Below, piece after piece: positions 7,793 to 24,279 of a stretch of 35,936 nt of DNA. Origin of the DNA: Psychrilyobacter piezotolerans (GTDB taxonomy: Bacteria > Fusobacteriota > Fusobacteriia > Fusobacteriales > Fusobacteriaceae); the NCBI RefSeq assembly GCF_003391055.1, contig NZ_QUAJ01000027.1:1-35936 (forward strand), given 5' to 3'. The notes below the pieces were generated by a model. The model was given only the letters and a program-made list of their open reading frames with translations. It had not been told where the DNA came from and did no database searches. Numbering within the stretch: position 1 is the first letter of the stretch; the number at the start of each line of letters is the position of its first letter. The position numbers and the translations under genes were made by a program.

Positions 7793-9133
7793 ATGAAAGG
7801 AAAATTAGGATTTTGGAGTATTGTACTTTTAGGTATTAACTGTATCATCGGTACTGGGATTTTCGGATTACCCAGTAAAGCTTATGCTATGATTGGTGAA
7901 GCAAGTGTCGGTGTAATTATTTTTGATGCATTATTGGTTATTTCTATTGCTCTGTGTTTCGCAGAAGCTGCTGGTCGTTTTAAAGTTAATGGAGGTCCTT
8001 ATATCTATGCCAAGGAAGCCTTTGGAACGTTCTTTGGTTATGAAGTGGGTCTTATGAAATGGCTCATGGGAATTATCGGCTGGGCTACATTTGCAGTATT
8101 TTTAGGAAACAGGCTTGCTCTGGTTTTCCCGACGTTTGACACTTCATCTGGCAGGATGGCTATTGCAATCTTTAGTATCCTTTTCTGGAGTGTAATTAAC
8201 TTAATGGGAGTAAAATCTTCTAAAATAGTTAATAATATAGTTACTTTAGGAAAAATAATACCATTATTTTTATTTATTTTTGCAGGAATCTTCCTATTTG
8301 GTAAGGTCGATACAACAACTTTAACTAAAACTGTTGCTGTTGCAGCATCTGCACCTAATGGAAATACCTTAGTAGAAGCAGCAATATTATTTTTCTTTGC
8401 TTTTACAGGTTTTGAAGCTATAGGTATCGCAGCTGGAGATATGATCAATCCTCAGAAAAATCTTCCAAAGGCGATTGTTGTAGTAATGTTAATTGTATCA
8501 GCTGTTTATATCGCTATCCTATTAATATGTATGAAAGTACTGGGACCATCTCTTGCTGTCAGTAAGGCTCCTGTTGCAGAAGCAGCTGGTGTTCTTTTAG
8601 GAAGCGGCGGAAAATCATTTATTATGACAGGAATATTAATATCAATAATAGGAATCAATATGGCCGGTTCTTATACTTCTACAAAGTCTGGAGTAGCCTT
8701 AGCTGAAACCGGTCTTGTTCCTGAATTTTTCTTAAAAACAAATAGTAAAGGGGTTCACTATAACGCAGTTCTTGCATCTATGATAGGAACTATGGTTCTG
8801 GCAATGAGTGGAAGTTTTGCTGCCCTTGCGTCTATCGGTGTTATTGTTAGATTTATCCAGTATATCCCAACTTGTGCTGCTGTTCTGATCTTTAGAAAAA
8901 GAGACAGGGAAAACGGAATAAAACATGAGGGGTTTACAATTCCATTTGGTCCAATTATTCCTATTATTGCTTTAGTTGTAAGTGTAATCCTATTAATTAA
9001 AGCAGGTATAGCTACTCCTCATAAAATCGTTTATGGTTTAGGAGGGTTAGTAGTTGTGGCTCCATTCTATAAATTCTCTAAAGATAGGATGGAAAAAGTA
9101 GAGAAAAAAGAAGCCTTGGGAGGTGCCCAATAA
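7793..9133 (+). CDS. APC-superfamily amino acid permease
   Basis: 446 residues with about 12 hydrophobic segments. The first carries the APC signature GINCIIGTGIFGLPSKAY (the Gly-rich unwound part of TM1 that contacts substrate carboxylate in this superfamily), followed by conserved FAEAAGRFKVNGGPYIYAKEAFG and, in TM6, FFFAFTGFEAI. ATG 7793 follows AGGGAGGAA. It abuts the next gene with no gap (stop at 9133, next ATG at 9134), so it is co-transcribed with the PuuD-type hydrolase. That pairing suggests import of a gamma-glutamyl compound, polyamine or amino acid, but substrate cannot be read from the sequence. Regulated perhaps through the dyads at 7685-7719. A clear paralogue starts at 9954. 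Confidence 0.9.
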   Translation: MKGKLGFWSIVLLGINCIIGTGIFGLPSKAYAMIGEASVGVIIFDALLVISIALCFAEAAGRFKVNGGPYIYAKEAFGTFFGYEVGLMKWLMGIIGWATFAVFLGNRLALVFPTFDTSSGRMAIAIFSILFWSVINLMGVKSSKIVNNIVTLGKIIPLFLFIFAGIFLFGKVDTTTLTKTVAVAASAPNGNTLVEAAILFFFAFTGFEAIGIAAGDMINPQKNLPKAIVVVMLIVSAVYIAILLICMKVLGPSLAVSKAPVAEAAGVLLGSGGKSFIMTGILISIIGINMAGSYTSTKSGVALAETGLVPEFFLKTNSKGVHYNAVLASMIGTMVLAMSGSFAALASIGVIVRFIQYIPTCAAVLIFRKRDRENGIKHEGFTIPFGPIIPIIALVVSVILLIKAGIATPHKIVYGLGGLVVVAPFYKFSKDRMEKVEKKEALGGAQ

Positions 9134-9832
9134 ATGAAAGTAATTGGTATTTCAGGAAATAAAAAGTTTTTAGATGGTTTTAACAGGGATTATGTTTTCG
9201 ATCACTATTCCACATGTATTGAAAAAATCGGTGCTGTACCGCTGATTTTACCAATAACTAACAAGGAAGAAGTTGCTAGGGTATATATCGATAAGATCGA
9301 TGCCTTAATAATGACCGGGGGTATCGATGTAAACCCTTTCTTATATGGTGAGGAACTTACAAAGGAAACTGAAGTACCTTTTATCCAGAGAGATACTTTT
9401 GATTTCCTGCTTATCAAGGCTGCACTGAATAAAAATATCCCTATTTTAGGGATATGCAGAGGGATGCAGATAATAAATGTATATTTTGGCGGTTCACTGC
9501 ATCAGGATATAAAATACTATGGTGAGACCAATGTGCAGCATGTACAGAAATCTAATCACCATGAGCCTGTTCACTTTGTGGATATTGAGAAGGATTCTAT
9601 CCTCTGTACTCTCATCGGGGAAAAACAAATTGTCAATTCTGTACACCATCAGTGTATCAAGGAACTGGGGGCAGGACTGACAGCTTCAGCAGTATCTTCT
9701 TCCGATAAGATAATTGAAGGTTATGAATCTAAGGGTAAAAACAAGATCCTGGGTATCCAGTGGCATCCTGAGATGATGTTTGCTGAAGGAAATAATGAAA
9801 TGGAAAATATCTTCCGGTTTTTACTTAGATAA
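9134..9832 (+). CDS. Peptidase C26 / gamma-glutamyl-gamma-aminobutyrate hydrolase-like protein
   Basis: 232 residues, a class-I glutamine-amidotransferase fold acting as a hydrolase. The catalytic triad is visible: nucleophile C108 in GICRGMQIIN, H211 and E213 in GIQWHPE. MTGGIDVNPFLYGEE and SVHHQ are family hallmarks of the PuuD group, which cleaves gamma-glutamyl amide bonds such as gamma-Glu-GABA. The ATG directly follows the permease stop codon and the permease 3' end supplies its ribosome site (GGGAGGTG), so translation is probably coupled. Known for the family: the hydrolase activity. Inferred: it processes the substrate imported by one or both neighbouring permeases. It could instead act on another gamma-glutamyl compound, since no other putrescine-pathway gene is present. 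Confidence 0.85.
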   Translation: MKVIGISGNKKFLDGFNRDYVFDHYSTCIEKIGAVPLILPITNKEEVARVYIDKIDALIMTGGIDVNPFLYGEELTKETEVPFIQRDTFDFLLIKAALNKNIPILGICRGMQIINVYFGGSLHQDIKYYGETNVQHVQKSNHHEPVHFVDIEKDSILCTLIGEKQIVNSVHHQCIKELGAGLTASAVSSSDKIIEGYESKGKNKILGIQWHPEMMFAEGNNEMENIFRFLLR

Positions 9833-9851
9833 TCAGAAAAATTATTCAGAT

Positions 9852-9882
9852 AGAGGGCTTTCTAAAAAAGAGGCCCTCTTTT
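9852..9882 (+). terminator. Intrinsic terminator after the hydrolase gene
   Basis: AGAGGGC (9852-9858) pairs with GCCCTCT (9873-9879) across a 14-base A-rich loop and is followed by TTTT. It ends the permease-hydrolase transcript or attenuates readthrough into the second permease. Confidence 0.8.
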
Positions 9883-9953
9883 CAATTAAACATACAGATG
9901 ATATACTATTTAAAATATTATAGATATCAATTTTTATAAAAGGAGGGCAGACT

Positions 9954-11213
9954 GTGACAAATAAACTAGGTTTTTGGAGTATTGTTTTACTTGGAATAAA
10001 CACCATTCTTGGATCAGGTATCTTCCTTCTTCCAGGAAGTTTTTATATAGCCTTAAATGAAAGAGGGGTTTTCCCTACCCTGATTGTTATCGCCACCGTT
10101 CTTTCTATCTCTCTTTGCTTTGCTGAAGCCTCTGGAATCTTTGAGGGGTATGGAGGTCCTTATATATATGTGAGAGAAGCTATGGGAGAATTCATGGGGT
10201 TTCAGGTTGGATTTATGAAGTGGGTTATCTCTCTTCTTGCCTGGGCAACCATGGCTGTTGCTTTTGCAGATCTTTTGGTGGCCTTTTTAGATATAGCTCA
10301 TATCCCTTATATTGAAAAGATTCTTGCAGGACTCCTCATTGTCATCCTCTCCTATATCAACTTTTTAGGAGTAGAATTAACAAAGAGTTTAAACAATATT
10401 GTTACCCTGGGAAAGATGGTGCCTATTATATTATTTGTTTTTATAGGAATTAAATATATGGGAAAAAGCAACCTCATCTTTATCGCAAGGGATCCCGGAA
10501 GATTGATAACGGGTATTGCAGATCCTATCCTGATCCTATTCTATGCATTTACAGGTTTCGAATCAATTGCAGTAGCAGCCAGAGATATGAAAACTCCCCT
10601 TAAAAACCTTCCAAAGGGTATTATCAGTGTAATGATTGGTATAACAATACTTTATCTTATCCTGATCTTTTCTATCCTGGGAGTTCTGGGAGGAAATATA
10701 GCCCCGGATTCATACCCTATATTTCATGCGGCCTACCTTCTGCTGGGACCTCTTGGAGGAAGCTTTTTCTCATCGGGGATAATAGTTTCTGTTATTGGTA
10801 TCAATATTGCATCATCTTTTATAAGTCCAAGATCTATAGTAGCACTATCTGAGAAAAATACCATGCCGGAATTTCTCTCCAGAAAAAATAAATATGGTAC
10901 CCCTGGTGCTGCTATCATCCTCACTGGGGGGCTTTCATTACTTATAATTCTTATTGGTAACTTTAATACCTTAGCTTCATTTTCTGTAATTTCAAGAATT
11001 TCCCAGTACCTGCTTACGTGTATAGCTGTCATCATATTTAAAAAGCGGGGTATTAAAGGCTCTTTAACCTTGCCGGGAGGGTACCTTGTTCCTATTATTG
11101 CCTTGGTAACTATGGGTATTTTATTTTATAACTATCTAATTTACATAGTTACTGTATTTTTAATATTTTTTCTCATTGGAAGATATTTTTATAGTTATGA
11201 TAATAACAAATAA
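9954..11213 (+). CDS. APC-superfamily amino acid permease (paralogue)
   Basis: 419 residues, about 12 membrane segments. The same signature positions as the permease at 7793 are kept: GINTILGSGIFLLPGSFY in TM1, FAEASGIFEGYGGPYIYVREAMG, and FYAFTGFESI in TM6, so the two are clearly related by duplication or share a recent ancestor. The start is GTG 9954, seven to eight bases after GGAGGG. It lies behind a terminator and therefore may be separately expressed or reached by readthrough. TM1 and TM6 differ at several positions from its paralogue (for example S for T beside GIF), consistent with a different substrate preference (inference). No terminator is obvious in the 110 bases that follow. Confidence 0.9.
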   Translation: MTNKLGFWSIVLLGINTILGSGIFLLPGSFYIALNERGVFPTLIVIATVLSISLCFAEASGIFEGYGGPYIYVREAMGEFMGFQVGFMKWVISLLAWATMAVAFADLLVAFLDIAHIPYIEKILAGLLIVILSYINFLGVELTKSLNNIVTLGKMVPIILFVFIGIKYMGKSNLIFIARDPGRLITGIADPILILFYAFTGFESIAVAARDMKTPLKNLPKGIISVMIGITILYLILIFSILGVLGGNIAPDSYPIFHAAYLLLGPLGGSFFSSGIIVSVIGINIASSFISPRSIVALSEKNTMPEFLSRKNKYGTPGAAIILTGGLSLLIILIGNFNTLASFSVISRISQYLLTCIAVIIFKKRGIKGSLTLPGGYLVPIIALVTMGILFYNYLIYIVTVFLIFFLIGRYFYSYDNNK

Positions 11214-20976: not shown

Positions 20977-21005
20977 TTGCTTTTTTCCTAAAAATTTGTT
21001 ATACT
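20977..21005 (+). promoter_or_regulatory. Promoter of the glnN leader
   Basis: TTGCTT (20977-20982), 17-base spacer, TATACT (21000-21005). Transcription would start near 21012, upstream of the small ORF, giving a glnN leader of about 350 nt. No convincing second promoter is seen between the first terminator and the aptamer. Confidence 0.7.
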
Positions 21006-21051
21006 GCTCTAAATAAGTTGGTACAAATAATAAAATTCGGAGGTTAAGCAG

Positions 21052-21144
21052 ATGTTTTTTAAAAAAATTCACAAATTAAACATGTTCATATCAAGCTTTG
21101 CTTCAAACACGGACTCAGTAAAAATTGTTTCTTATAGGGGATAG
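21052..21144 (+). CDS. 30-codon leader ORF upstream of the glnN riboswitch
   Basis: ATG 21052 lies eight bases after CGGAGG (21038-21043), a strong ribosome site, and a good promoter is 47 bases upstream. The product is 30 residues, basic at the start (MFFKKIHKL), ending VSYRG. The stop TAG (21142-21144) is inside the 5' arm of the terminator hairpin at 21137-21171. A ribosome reaching the stop would cover that arm and favour readthrough toward the riboswitch and glnN; without translation the hairpin could form. No run of Gln, Glu or other regulatory codons is seen. It may instead be a free-standing small-protein gene with its own terminator. I recognise no family. Confidence 0.55.
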   Translation: MFFKKIHKLNMFISSFASNTDSVKIVSYRG

Positions 21145-21171
21145 TGACTTCATGTCACTGCCCCCCTTTTT
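21137..21171 (+). terminator. Strong terminator hairpin in the glnN leader
   Basis: AGTGAC (21143-21148) pairs with GTCACT (21154-21159) across a TTCAT loop; the outer GGGG (21137-21140) pairs with CCCC (21161-21164), with one bulge and a T-G pair between; five T follow. This is a strong intrinsic terminator that any transcript from 20977 must pass to reach glnN. Confidence 0.85.
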
Positions 21172-21185
21172 AAAATTTATATAAA

Positions 21186-21250
21186 ACTTATATATCCCCA
21201 TAATATGGTTGGGAGTTTCTAGGGTTTACCACAAATTAACCACTATAAGT
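21186..21250 (+). promoter_or_regulatory. Purine riboswitch aptamer (guanine type)
   Basis: P1 is a perfect 7 bp: ACTTATA (21186-21192) with TATAAGT (21244-21250). P2 forms between TCCCCA and TTGGGA around the L2 loop that contains ATAATATGG. J2/3 is the invariant GTTTCTA. P3 uses GGTT and AACC around the loop ACCACAAA, whose CC can make the known loop-loop pairs with the GG of L2. The base directly before the 3' arm of P1, equivalent to C74 of the xpt aptamer, is C (21243), which predicts guanine or hypoxanthine rather than adenine binding. L3 departs from the usual ACCGTAAA at one or two positions. It lies 114 bases before the glnN start codon. Confidence 0.88.
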
Positions 21251-21278
21251 GAATTTTATGCCGCTATCGTCCGAGGCT

Positions 21279-21318
21279 TGTTTTTCGCTTTACTTAAAAA
21301 CATGTCTTGTTTTTTTTT
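21279..21318 (+). terminator. Expression platform: A/U terminator with competing hairpin
   Basis: AAAAACA (21296-21302) can pair either with the downstream TGTTTTT (21308-21314, loop TGTCT, then more T) to give a terminator-like stem, or with the upstream TGTTTTT (21279-21285) to give a mutually exclusive hairpin. This is the layout of a terminator/antiterminator switch. How it couples to P1 is not evident, and the stems are A/U-rich, so the function is an inference. Confidence 0.5.
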
Positions 21319-21363
21319 ATAAATTAATCGCAATAAACATTTAAACAACTTTAGGAGGTCAAG

Positions 21364-23475
21364 ATGAAAAAAATTATTACTGAAACTAAAAGTTTACCTG
21401 AAATTTATGGAGATTATTGCTTTGACAAAACTACCTTAAGGCAGCGTGTCCCAAAGAGTGTATTCAAAGAATTTTTAGAGGTGCAAAATGGTAGAAAGGA
21501 ATTGACTCTTTCCATTGCTGAGGTAGTAGCCAATGCCATGAAAGATTGGGCCATTGAAAAAGGAGCTACTCATTATACCCATTGGTTCCAACCATTAAAT
21601 GGACTGACTGCAGAAAAACACGATTCTTTTGTATCTCCTATCGGAGACGGACAGATCATAATGGAATTTTCGGGAAAGGAGTTAATTAAGGGAGAATCAG
21701 ATGCATCTTCATTTCCAAGCGGCGGACTGAGATCTACCTTTGAAGCCCGTGGATACACTGCATGGGATACTACCTCTCCTGCGTTTTTAAAGGATGACAA
21801 TACGGGGATCACACTATATATTCCAACTGCTTTTGTTGCCTATACAGGAGAGGCCTTGGATAAAAAAGTACCTCTGTTAAGATCTATGAATGCCATTGAA
21901 AAACAGGCTCTTAGAATCTTAAGGATTTTAGGAAATAATACTTCCAAGCATATTACTACATGCTTAGGAGCAGAGCAGGAATATTTTTTAGTTGAAAAAA
22001 ATCTATTTAACAAAAGATTGGATCTGGCTCATACGGGAAGAACATTGTTTGGAGCAAAACCTGCTAAATCACAGGAGCTTAGAAGTCATTATTACGGAAC
22101 TATAGAGGAAAGAGTAGCTGCCTTCATGAGGGAATTGGACTTCGAATTATGGAGACTGGGGATTCCTTCTAAGACTAAACATAACGAAGTAGCTCCCAAC
22201 CAGTTTGAGCTTGCACCTATTTATAGCACTACAAATGTTGCTACCGACCAAAACCAGCTTGTGATGGATACTATAAATAAAATGGCCAGCAGACATGATT
22301 TAGTGGCATTATTACATGAAAAACCATTTGCAGATGTAAATGGTTCCGGTAAACACAATAACTGGTCTTTGGCTACCGATGATGGAATCAACCTATTTGA
22401 GCCAGGAAAAAATCCTAAAGAAAATGCACAGTTTTTAATTTTTATTGCCGCTGTTATAAAGGCCGTGGATAAATATGCGCCGCTCCTCAGACTTTCTACT
22501 GCAAGTGCATCCAATGACAACAGATTAGGAGGACATGAAGCTCCCCCGGCTATTATCTCAATCTTCTTAGGAGATGAATTAGAAACTATCTTCAAGAAGA
22601 CCGATGAAAAATTAAAAACCAGAAATAAATTAGAAATTGGTGTAGATTCTTTACCTAAGCTGCCTATGGATATCACCGACAGAAACAGAACATCTCCATT
22701 TGCCTTTACTGGAAATAAATTTGAATTTAGAATGCCTGGATCCAGTCAAAGTACATCTACTCCCAACGTTATGTTAAATACAATCATGGCCGATGTGTTA
22801 AAAGAATTTGCCGATGAATTAGAGGGAATGGAAGATAAGACTAAGGGAATTCAAAAATTAGTATCTAAAACATATAAAGAACACAAAAGAATAATCTTCT
22901 CCGGAAATGGTTATGGGGAAGAGTGGGTGAAGGAAGCTGAGAAAAGGGGACTGCCTAATTTAAAATCTACAACAGATGCATTGGGAGCTTATACTACTCC
23001 TGAAACAATTGAGTTATTTGGAAGACACGGAGTATTATCCGAGGGAGAATTAATTTCCAGATACAATATCTATGCTGAAAATTATTATACTCAAATAGTG
23101 ACAGAATCAACTGTGATGATTAAGATGGCTGTCCAAGATATCTATCCGGCATCAAACAGGTATGCTCTGGAGCTGGCTGAAATAATTAAAAAATCTTCTA
23201 AAATATTAGGAGAAGAATTTACAGTAACTCAGGAAGAACTTCTGGCTTATATTTTAAAAAATAATGCAGAGTTGTATAAATCTTCCAAAAAACTGGAAGA
23301 AAAATTAGAGGAGTTAAATAATTTAGAAAACATCACCTTGAGAGTTAATTTTACTAAAGATGAACTTTTACCTCTCATGAAAAAATTAAGAACTCATGGA
23401 GATAATTTAGAAGGTGTGGTAGAACATAAGATGTGGCCATTCCCGACTTATGAAGAGTTATTATTTAAATTATAA
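21364..23475 (+). CDS. glnN: Glutamine synthetase type III
   Basis: 703 residues, the length of GSIII dodecamers and much longer than GSI or GSII. It makes glutamine from glutamate, ammonia and ATP. Seen: the GSIII-specific N-terminus (PEIYGDYCFDKTTLRQRVPK), HWFQPLNGLTAEKHDSF, the SGGLRSTFEARGYTAWD block, GAEQEYFLVE with metal-binding Glu, HNEVAPNQFELAPIY, NGSGKHNNWSL near the ATP site, RLGGHEAPPAIIS, and a GSIII C-terminal helical extension. ATG 21364 follows TTAGGAGG. The leader carries an ORF, a terminator, a guanine-type riboswitch and a second terminator-like stem, so expression should respond to purine status, which is logical because glutamine donates nitrogen in purine synthesis. A symmetrical terminator follows. 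Confidence 0.96.
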   Translation: MKKIITETKSLPEIYGDYCFDKTTLRQRVPKSVFKEFLEVQNGRKELTLSIAEVVANAMKDWAIEKGATHYTHWFQPLNGLTAEKHDSFVSPIGDGQIIMEFSGKELIKGESDASSFPSGGLRSTFEARGYTAWDTTSPAFLKDDNTGITLYIPTAFVAYTGEALDKKVPLLRSMNAIEKQALRILRILGNNTSKHITTCLGAEQEYFLVEKNLFNKRLDLAHTGRTLFGAKPAKSQELRSHYYGTIEERVAAFMRELDFELWRLGIPSKTKHNEVAPNQFELAPIYSTTNVATDQNQLVMDTINKMASRHDLVALLHEKPFADVNGSGKHNNWSLATDDGINLFEPGKNPKENAQFLIFIAAVIKAVDKYAPLLRLSTASASNDNRLGGHEAPPAIISIFLGDELETIFKKTDEKLKTRNKLEIGVDSLPKLPMDITDRNRTSPFAFTGNKFEFRMPGSSQSTSTPNVMLNTIMADVLKEFADELEGMEDKTKGIQKLVSKTYKEHKRIIFSGNGYGEEWVKEAEKRGLPNLKSTTDALGAYTTPETIELFGRHGVLSEGELISRYNIYAENYYTQIVTESTVMIKMAVQDIYPASNRYALELAEIIKKSSKILGEEFTVTQEELLAYILKNNAELYKSSKKLEEKLEELNNLENITLRVNFTKDELLPLMKKLRTHGDNLEGVVEHKMWPFPTYEELLFKL

Positions 23476-23483
23476 ACTTAAAA

Positions 23484-23507
23484 AAAGAGCGAAGAAATTC
23501 GCTCTTT
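23484..23507. terminator. Shared terminator of glnN and the TSUP gene
   Basis: AAAGAGCGAA (23484-23493), loop GAAA, TTCGCTCTTT (23498-23507), a perfect 10-bp stem with A and T tracts at the ends. It serves both convergent genes. Confidence 0.88.
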
Positions 23508-23511
23508 TACT

Positions 23512-24279
23512 TTATACTAAGCTGCTTACCACATTGTAAAAATTTAAGATCACCAGGGCTATTATAGCAGTATTAAATATTTTATGAATTATTTCATGAC
23601 TCAATTTATGATTGAAATGAGCTCCTATAAATCCTCCTAAAATCCCGCCGGGAATCATCACATAGAGCATAGACAGATCATATCTGCCAAACCCGCCTCC
23701 TGCAAAAATCAAAATTAATTTTGCAAACTGAGACAATAAAATTATCAATATTGAAGTTATAGCAGCTTTTTTTATATCCATATTCATAAGTAAAACCAGC
23801 ACCATTACATTTATAGGTCCTCCTCCTACCCCCAGAAAAGATGCTATAGTTCCAAGGGTCATTCCTATCAAAAACAATACCGGATAATTTTTTAGATGGT
23901 ATTTCGGAAAATTTTCTTTAAATAAAACCAATATCAGCAGCCCCGCTAAGATAAATCCCTGAATCGCTGTGGCAAAACCTTCATTATTTAAAGTTTTCAA
24001 AAAAACACCAAATAATGAATTCCCAATTCCACCACCTAATATTGATCCTGCTGTTATTATCAGCATATTTTTTTCCACTTTAAATCCTTTCTTCATTTGT
24101 TTTCCTGTAGATACAACAGCCATGGAGAAGACCGTAAAGGAGGAGAGTATCCCAATAGTAGTAAGATCATAAGTTCCTATAGCGTCTAAAACCGGCTTTA
24201 TAACCACTCCCCCGCCTAATCCAACCAATGATCCAAAAATTGTTGCTAACAGCCCAATACCAAAGTATAATATCATCAT
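23512..24279 (-). CDS. TSUP-family (TauE/SafE) membrane transporter
   Basis: 255 residues with about eight hydrophobic segments in two repeats. Each half carries the TSUP Gly-rich loop: GSLVGLGGGVVIKP near the N-terminus and ASFLGVGGGPINV in the second half, which mark the DUF81/TauE family that exports or imports sulfite, sulfonates, taurine-derived or other organic anions. ATG 24279 follows AAAGGTGG; an ATG-ATG pair leaves one residue of doubt. It stands alone, with a terminator shared with glnN, so context gives no substrate. A second, more divergent TSUP protein is encoded at 28698. Confidence 0.88.
   Translation of the reverse strand: MMILYFGIGLLATIFGSLVGLGGGVVIKPVLDAIGTYDLTTIGILSSFTVFSMAVVSTGKQMKKGFKVEKNMLIITAGSILGGGIGNSLFGVFLKTLNNEGFATAIQGFILAGLLILVLFKENFPKYHLKNYPVLFLIGMTLGTIASFLGVGGGPINVMVLVLLMNMDIKKAAITSILIILLSQFAKLILIFAGGGFGRYDLSMLYVMIPGGILGGFIGAHFNHKLSHEIIHKIFNTAIIALVILNFYNVVSSLV

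Follow-up and report, generated by a model that had tools for sequence, protein, structure and literature searches.

The glnN locus and its leader

The window analyzed here, that is, the whole stretch of 35,936 nucleotides, corresponds to positions 1–35,936 of the forward strand of contig NZ_QUAJ01000027.1 of Psychrilyobacter piezotolerans (assembly GCF_003391055.1; genome G000). It includes the glutamine synthetase gene glnN together with its leader, in which the following features were recognized:

20977–21005, + strand: likely glnN promoter read from the sequence (TTGCTT, 17 nt, TATACT), with the extended −10 element TGTTATACT at 20997–21005
21039–21144, + strand: leader open reading frame (ORF) of 30 codons with a conserved frame (GGAGG at 21039–21043, ATG at 21052, stop codon TAG at 21142–21144)
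21137–21171, + strand: predicted terminator 1, overlapping the stop codon of the leader ORF (stem GGGG.AUAGUGAC/GUCACUG.CCCC, −17.9 kcal/mol, followed by U5)
21186–21250, + strand: guanine-type purine riboswitch aptamer, identified by RF00167 (57.4 bits), by pair counts, and by our own aptamer model (77.9 bits, the model being partly derived from this aptamer itself)
21247–21290, + strand: predicted antiterminator, AAGUGAA (21247–21253, overlapping the 3′ strand of P1) paired with UUCGCUU (21284–21290), −10.9 kcal/mol, kept in G058, G054, and G060
21272–21318, + strand: predicted terminator 2 of the riboswitch platform, CGAGGCUUGUUUUU, a 10-nt loop, and AAAAACAUGUCUUG, followed by U9, −10.4 kcal/mol
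21351–21356, + strand: ribosome-binding site of glnN, AGGAGG, conserved
21364–23475, + strand: glnN, type III glutamine synthetase, 703 aa (PF12437, 2.9e-74; PF18318; PF00120)
23483–23508, + strand: terminator after glnN found by the terminator scan, 11 pairs

The preliminary description had placed a type III glutamine synthetase downstream of the aptamer, and the Pfam analysis bore this out: the product of 703 aa carried GSIII_N (2.9e-74), Gln-synt_C, and Gln-synt_C-ter, in agreement with the length of about 700 aa and the N-terminal, catalytic, and C-terminal domains of type III enzymes. The score against TIGR03105, an NCBIfam model also named type III, was below the cut-off (45 vs. 470 bits); this model comprises 435 positions and thus apparently represents a different protein group. 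In the genome of P. piezotolerans, which is 99.8% complete, glnN was the only match to PF00120, and a single match was likewise obtained in G053, G054, G058, and G059. Because glnN is followed by a terminator and the next gene (23512–24279) lies on the opposite strand, it is probably transcribed alone. Elsewhere in the window, two genes resembling amino-acid transporters flank a peptidase C26 gene (gamma-glutamyl-GABA hydrolase-like) at 7793–11213, which is possibly a glutamate-related cluster, and a DUF1254/DUF1214 protein with a TTG start codon and a lipoprotein-like signal is encoded at 460–2046.

The −35 element of the likely promoter matches the consensus at only three of six positions; its extended −10 element is kept as TATACT or TATAAT in G058, G054, G060, and G059. 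The start, frame, Shine–Dalgarno sequence, and stop codon of the leader ORF were kept in five species, and a deletion of four codons was in frame. The encoded peptide showed no clear purifying selection, with amino-acid changes about as frequent as synonymous ones. Since the frame is kept and the amino acids are not, these sequences suggest that translation of the ORF, rather than the peptide, is important. A conserved small protein was rejected on the basis of the same substitution counts and the lack of a Pfam match, as was classical glutamine-codon attenuation, because the leader ORFs of the genus contain no glutamine codon. In Ilyobacter polytropus, the leader ORF is annotated as the hypothetical protein WP_187288121.1.

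The 5′ arm of terminator 1 contains the stop codon of the ORF, and its fold energy reached −22.7 kcal/mol in G058 and −22.9 kcal/mol in G059. In G059, only a few nucleotides separate the U-run of this terminator from the Shine–Dalgarno sequence of glnN; this leaves no room for a second promoter, so terminator 1 must be read through there. The element is best read as a putative attenuator. Its control by ANTAR was rejected, as ANTAR occurs in G000 and in none of the leader-bearing genomes G058, G042, G044, and G053. A similar layout of ORF and terminator precedes glnN in genera g9, g10, and g14, which makes four genera of Fusobacteriaceae together with that of the window. Leaders of this kind were observed in G041–G043 (L027–L029), G044 (L026), and G053 (L030), and the combination is by itself a candidate for a new attenuator. 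In genus g3 (L164, L165, L169–L171, and similar loci), glnN is preceded at a distance of about 105–128 nt by a conserved hairpin (GAGAGGAGT...ACTCCTCTT) with a U-run after it, which may represent either a further attenuator or the end of the preceding gene.

Given that the promoter, the ORF, and terminator 1 all lie ahead of the aptamer, the leader would comprise two attenuators in series. The riboswitch does precede glnN, as had been proposed; however, it is not the sole control of the leader, because the promoter is separated from the aptamer by the ORF and a strong terminator.

The aptamer and its expression platform

A cmscan search of the whole window returned a purine riboswitch (RF00167) at 21168–21265 (+ strand) with 57.4 bits (E 1.7e-07; cut-off 37), and this was the only match above the gathering score in the 35,936 nt. 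The guanine-type purine riboswitch proposed from the letters alone at 21186–21250 was thus recovered as a significant covariance-model match. Low-threshold matches to other Rfam families at the locus remained below their cut-offs and belonged to unrelated eukaryotic or viral families. A glutamine riboswitch was ruled out, as RF01739 had no match in the window.

P1 is formed by ACUUAUA (21186–21192) and UAUAAGU (21244–21250), seven base pairs with no mismatch. P2 (21197–21200/21210–21213) and P3 (21223–21226/21238–21241) contain one U–U mismatch each. L2 (AUAAUAUGG) occupies 21200–21208 and the CC of L3 is at 21229–21230; sequence and alignment contain both the GG of L2 and the CC of L3 required for the predicted loop kiss. 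The cytosine characteristic of the guanine class, C74, is at 21243, and the ligand contacts U22, U47, and U51 are intact according to a position tally over 62 distinct aptamers. The perfect P1, L2, the CC of L3, and the guanine-type C were all found where the preliminary description had put them. Its claim of an invariant junction held only in part: GUUUCUA is present (21215–21221), but it is followed by G (position 53, 21222) instead of the expected C.

Structural support was evaluated on an alignment of 15 aptamers: 13 from the genome of the window (the glnN aptamer and 12 others) and two from elsewhere, of which one belongs to a sister species and one to a different genus. The pairs of the three-way junction were present in 91.8% of cells, compared with 68.4% in shuffles, and both sides had changed in 15 of the 18 pairs. 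By RF00167 score (57.4 bits), the glnN aptamer ranks 12th among the 13 of its own genome. By score and structure, it is a member of the purine riboswitch class.

The other 12 aptamers of the genome precede add, pbuX, xpt, pbuG (twice), guaA, guaB, fhs, purL, ade, a BMP lipoprotein gene, and a DMT transporter gene, the names of these targets being taken from sequence without a profile test; the class is thus widely used in this genome. In the fhs leader (L016, 1018–1180 of contig C46), the aptamer is followed by a short ORF with a Shine–Dalgarno sequence (MKYKIKMLKINKKGINQQS), a strong terminator (−18.8 kcal/mol) with the stop codon of the ORF at its 5′ end, and fhs, a layout like that of glnN in G053. 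The aptamers of L019 (4089–4157, own genome) and of L194 and L206 (G053), located before DMT-type transporter or BMP lipoprotein genes, show ATATGC in L2 together with GAGC in L3; here the kissing pair G38–C60 is replaced by C38–G60, a compensatory exchange within the tertiary contact. In G053, L206 and L194 (contig 3, 142883–143139) form a tandem of near-identical purine aptamers, spaced by about 155 nt, ahead of a single lipoprotein gene.

The substitution at position 53 affects the A23–G46–C53 triple, which was called fully conserved and is the uppermost layer of the binding pocket in a structure survey (PMC3764141). In G000, G054, G058, and G060, the glnN aptamer has G at this position. 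In the model-based alignment, C53 occurred in 59 of the 62 distinct aptamers, and the remaining three, all of them glnN sequences from the genus, had G53; positions 22, 23, 46, 47, 49–52, and 75 were invariant among the 62. A pattern search for G53 in 98 genomes of the phylum yielded five matches, four of which were the glnN aptamers, and more than 140 of the matches listed had C53. The fifth (L229, 943–1040, minus strand, G086; 60.5 bits) lies before a gene resembling an exported MTA/SAH nucleosidase, and its score indicates that C53G is compatible with membership in the class. On these alignments, C53G is rare, not unique, and fixed at glnN within the genus. As it breaks the G46–C53 pair, the affinity or specificity of the aptamer may differ.

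The predicted expression platform lies in the 5′ leader of glnN (21247–21318), as in guanine-class riboswitches. Terminator 2 and the antiterminator share bases and are mutually exclusive in all four species of the genus with the glnN aptamer, and the base changes between species preserve both competing helices. When the aptamer pairs were enforced during folding, terminator 2 formed in all four; in the unconstrained fold, the antiterminator was the best structure in three species, with the two states nearly equal in energy in G054. Terminator 2 is rich in U and A, with few G–C pairs. The free fold of the 196-nt leader showed no excess of stability over shuffles (z +0.63), as expected when a switch alternates between two moderate structures. 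Because the 3′ strand of P1 forms the antiterminator when free and permits terminator 2 when held, the ligand should turn glnN off. The predicted platform should thus follow the standard OFF design, in which the ligand-bound state terminates transcription, and its direction agrees with the earlier proposal that guanine represses glnN.

Distribution and origin of the glnN riboswitch

Among the eight genomes of the genus, the aptamer was located 5′ of glnN in G000, G054, G058, and G060. It was not detected at glnN in G057 or in G056, the contig of which stops 200 bp upstream of the gene, and glnN itself was not found in the incomplete genome G055. The leader of G059 aligned through the promoter, the ORF, and terminator 1 and then continued directly with the Shine–Dalgarno sequence of glnN, and thus represents an empty site without the cassette. 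Between species, the aptamers differed at 0–2 of 65 positions, compared with 5–14 of about 50 four-fold degenerate sites of glnN. The comparison of glnN leaders proposed at the outset accordingly recovered the motif in three sister species and in one other genus.

Among other aptamers, the purL aptamers of the genus were the closest, with 85% identity in G000 and 88% in G054; the gene was recognized as purL from sequence in G000, G054, G055, G056, and G059. The purL leaders were also the next matches of the cassette within the genus in a blastn search, and the two aptamers grouped with a support of 0.90 in a tree that, being built on a 65-nt alignment, is weak. Identity, blastn, and tree all agree on the kinship with purL. 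The sequences indicate that the glnN aptamer most likely arose from the purL leader by duplication after the genus had arisen. Loss of the aptamer in G059 is a less simple explanation than gain in the other species, because the leader of genera g9 and g10 contains ORF and terminator without an aptamer. A copy on a plasmid was rejected, since a DNA search of the plasmid collection gave no match.

G053, which belongs to another genus, also carries a purine aptamer at glnN (81.5 bits), with its own terminator and a competing antiterminator. This aptamer lies before the leader ORF, whereas that of the window's genus lies after it; it carries C53, and its best matches (68%) were to aptamers other than that of the window. 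A shared origin of both glnN riboswitches was rejected because the G053 sequence is distant and located on the other side of the ORF; from its sequence and position, the G053 riboswitch looks like an independent capture. Altogether, the aptamer was present in five of the 53 genomes of the family with a readable glnN leader (some leaders being readable only partially) and in none of the 80 glnN loci outside Fusobacteriota, in keeping with the earlier view that the circuit is uncommon.

Proposed control of glnN

We propose that the guanine-class riboswitch is a transcriptional OFF switch on the only recognizable glutamine synthetase gene of the cell, derived from purL and inserted behind an older control by ORF and terminator, and consider this very probable (about 0.8). 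The proposal is based on sequence, predicted structure, conservation, paralogy, and the target gene, from which we infer the ligand, the direction of control, and the two-input logic. RNA polymerase would initiate near 21012 and would pass terminator 1 only under a condition tied to translation of the leader ORF. In the absence of ligand, the 3′ strand of P1 would pair with 21284–21290, terminator 2 would be blocked, and glnN would be transcribed. With guanine (or hypoxanthine) bound, P1 would be held, terminator 2 would fold, and transcription would stop about 45 nt before glnN. As the cassette is placed behind the control by ORF and terminator, expression of glnN should require both that terminator 1 be read through and that guanine be low. 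Glutamine supply would then be under the same signal as the glutamine-consuming purL and guaA of this genome, and guanine would either lower the supply of glutamine along with the demand or be read as a sign of nitrogen sufficiency. Points against the proposal are C53G, the unremarkable stability of the free leader fold, the few G–C pairs of terminator 2, and the strong terminator 1, which may restrict the amount of RNA reaching the riboswitch.

A changed response would be expected if C53G gave the pocket roof another shape: the aptamer would then sense a different purine, for instance xanthine or deoxyguanosine, or would respond only to much higher guanine. G53 is fixed in the four species with a glnN aptamer and absent from the 59 other distinct aptamers, and in known variant classes, core changes occur together with unusual targets (PMC9295807). 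However, contacts 22, 47, 51, and 74 are standard, the traits of xanthine-II (a change at position 51 and junction insertions) are absent, and the C53G aptamer of G086 precedes an ordinary gene of the purine-salvage type, which makes a variant of this kind improbable. The same substitution, together with the mismatches in P2 and P3, the 12th rank of 13, and the weak terminator 2, could also mark a decaying copy of the purL aptamer that does not bind a ligand and leaves glnN to the leader ORF and terminator 1 alone. Such decay is difficult to reconcile with the slow evolution of the aptamer, which in every comparison changed less than the spacer and the glnN synonymous sites, and in most also less than the leader ORF, or with platform changes that preserve both alternative pairings; we regard it as more doubtful still. 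Finally, the weak −10-like sequences in the AT-rich spacer (21310–21350) would be compatible with a separate downstream promoter of glnN, the aptamer then serving another RNA, either a short transcript or one from the opposite strand. This hardly accords with the strong Shine–Dalgarno sequence and glnN directly after terminator 2, with G059, where both cassette and spacer are missing and the glnN promoter must therefore be upstream, or with the order and strand of aptamer, platform, and gene kept in four species, and we give it almost no weight.

The preferred reading, an OFF switch responding to guanine, can be extended to a two-input gate that couples the guanine riboswitch in series to an ORF attenuator responding to nitrogen or to translation. 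Within Fusobacteriaceae, such a gate would have come together at least two times, each time from a different purine aptamer and with the order of the two units reversed in G053; the aptamer of the window would have been retuned by C53G. We put the extension forward tentatively, at somewhat below even odds.

Purine riboswitches and their usual targets are well known; the variant features here are the glnN target, C53G, and the arrangement in series with a leader-ORF attenuator. The glnN riboswitch shares the three-way junction, the loop kiss, C74, and the OFF platform based on the 3′ strand of P1 with the guanine-class (RF00167) riboswitches of Bacillus subtilis xpt/purE and of its own purL, but it targets glutamine synthetase rather than purine synthesis, salvage, or transport, and C53 is replaced by G. 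Like the xanthine-II, guanine-II, and 2′-dG variants (PMC9295807), it combines a core substitution with an atypical target; unlike them, it is changed at position 53 and not at the ligand contacts, has no junction insertion, and is confined to one genus. The tandem guanine–PRPP riboswitch (PMC5912903) likewise joins guanine sensing and a second input in one leader; its aptamers share a single platform, whereas the second input of glnN would be the leader ORF, with a terminator for each unit. The glutamine riboswitch (RF01739, glnA RNA) and the cyanobacterial control of glutamine synthetase also place an RNA switch on a gene of glutamine synthesis, but the glnN leader has a different RNA family and presumably a different ligand. 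With the trp, his, and pyrBI attenuators, the leader has in common a short ORF that adjoins the terminator stem or ends inside it, but it lacks a run of glutamine codons and its peptide is not conserved. In the searchable literature, the coverage of which is incomplete, we found no prior report of a purine riboswitch on a glutamine synthetase gene.

Riboswitch targets are used for inferring ligands and gene functions. The empty site, the donor paralogue, and the recipient are all visible here, which makes glnN a clean case of the spread of a riboswitch to a new target, and C53G would provide a natural test of the role of the pocket roof in a very well studied binding pocket. Primary nitrogen assimilation is usually controlled by proteins of the PII, NtrC, or GlnR type. 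If the proposal is true, the glnN leader would couple this assimilation directly to purine status through an RNA.
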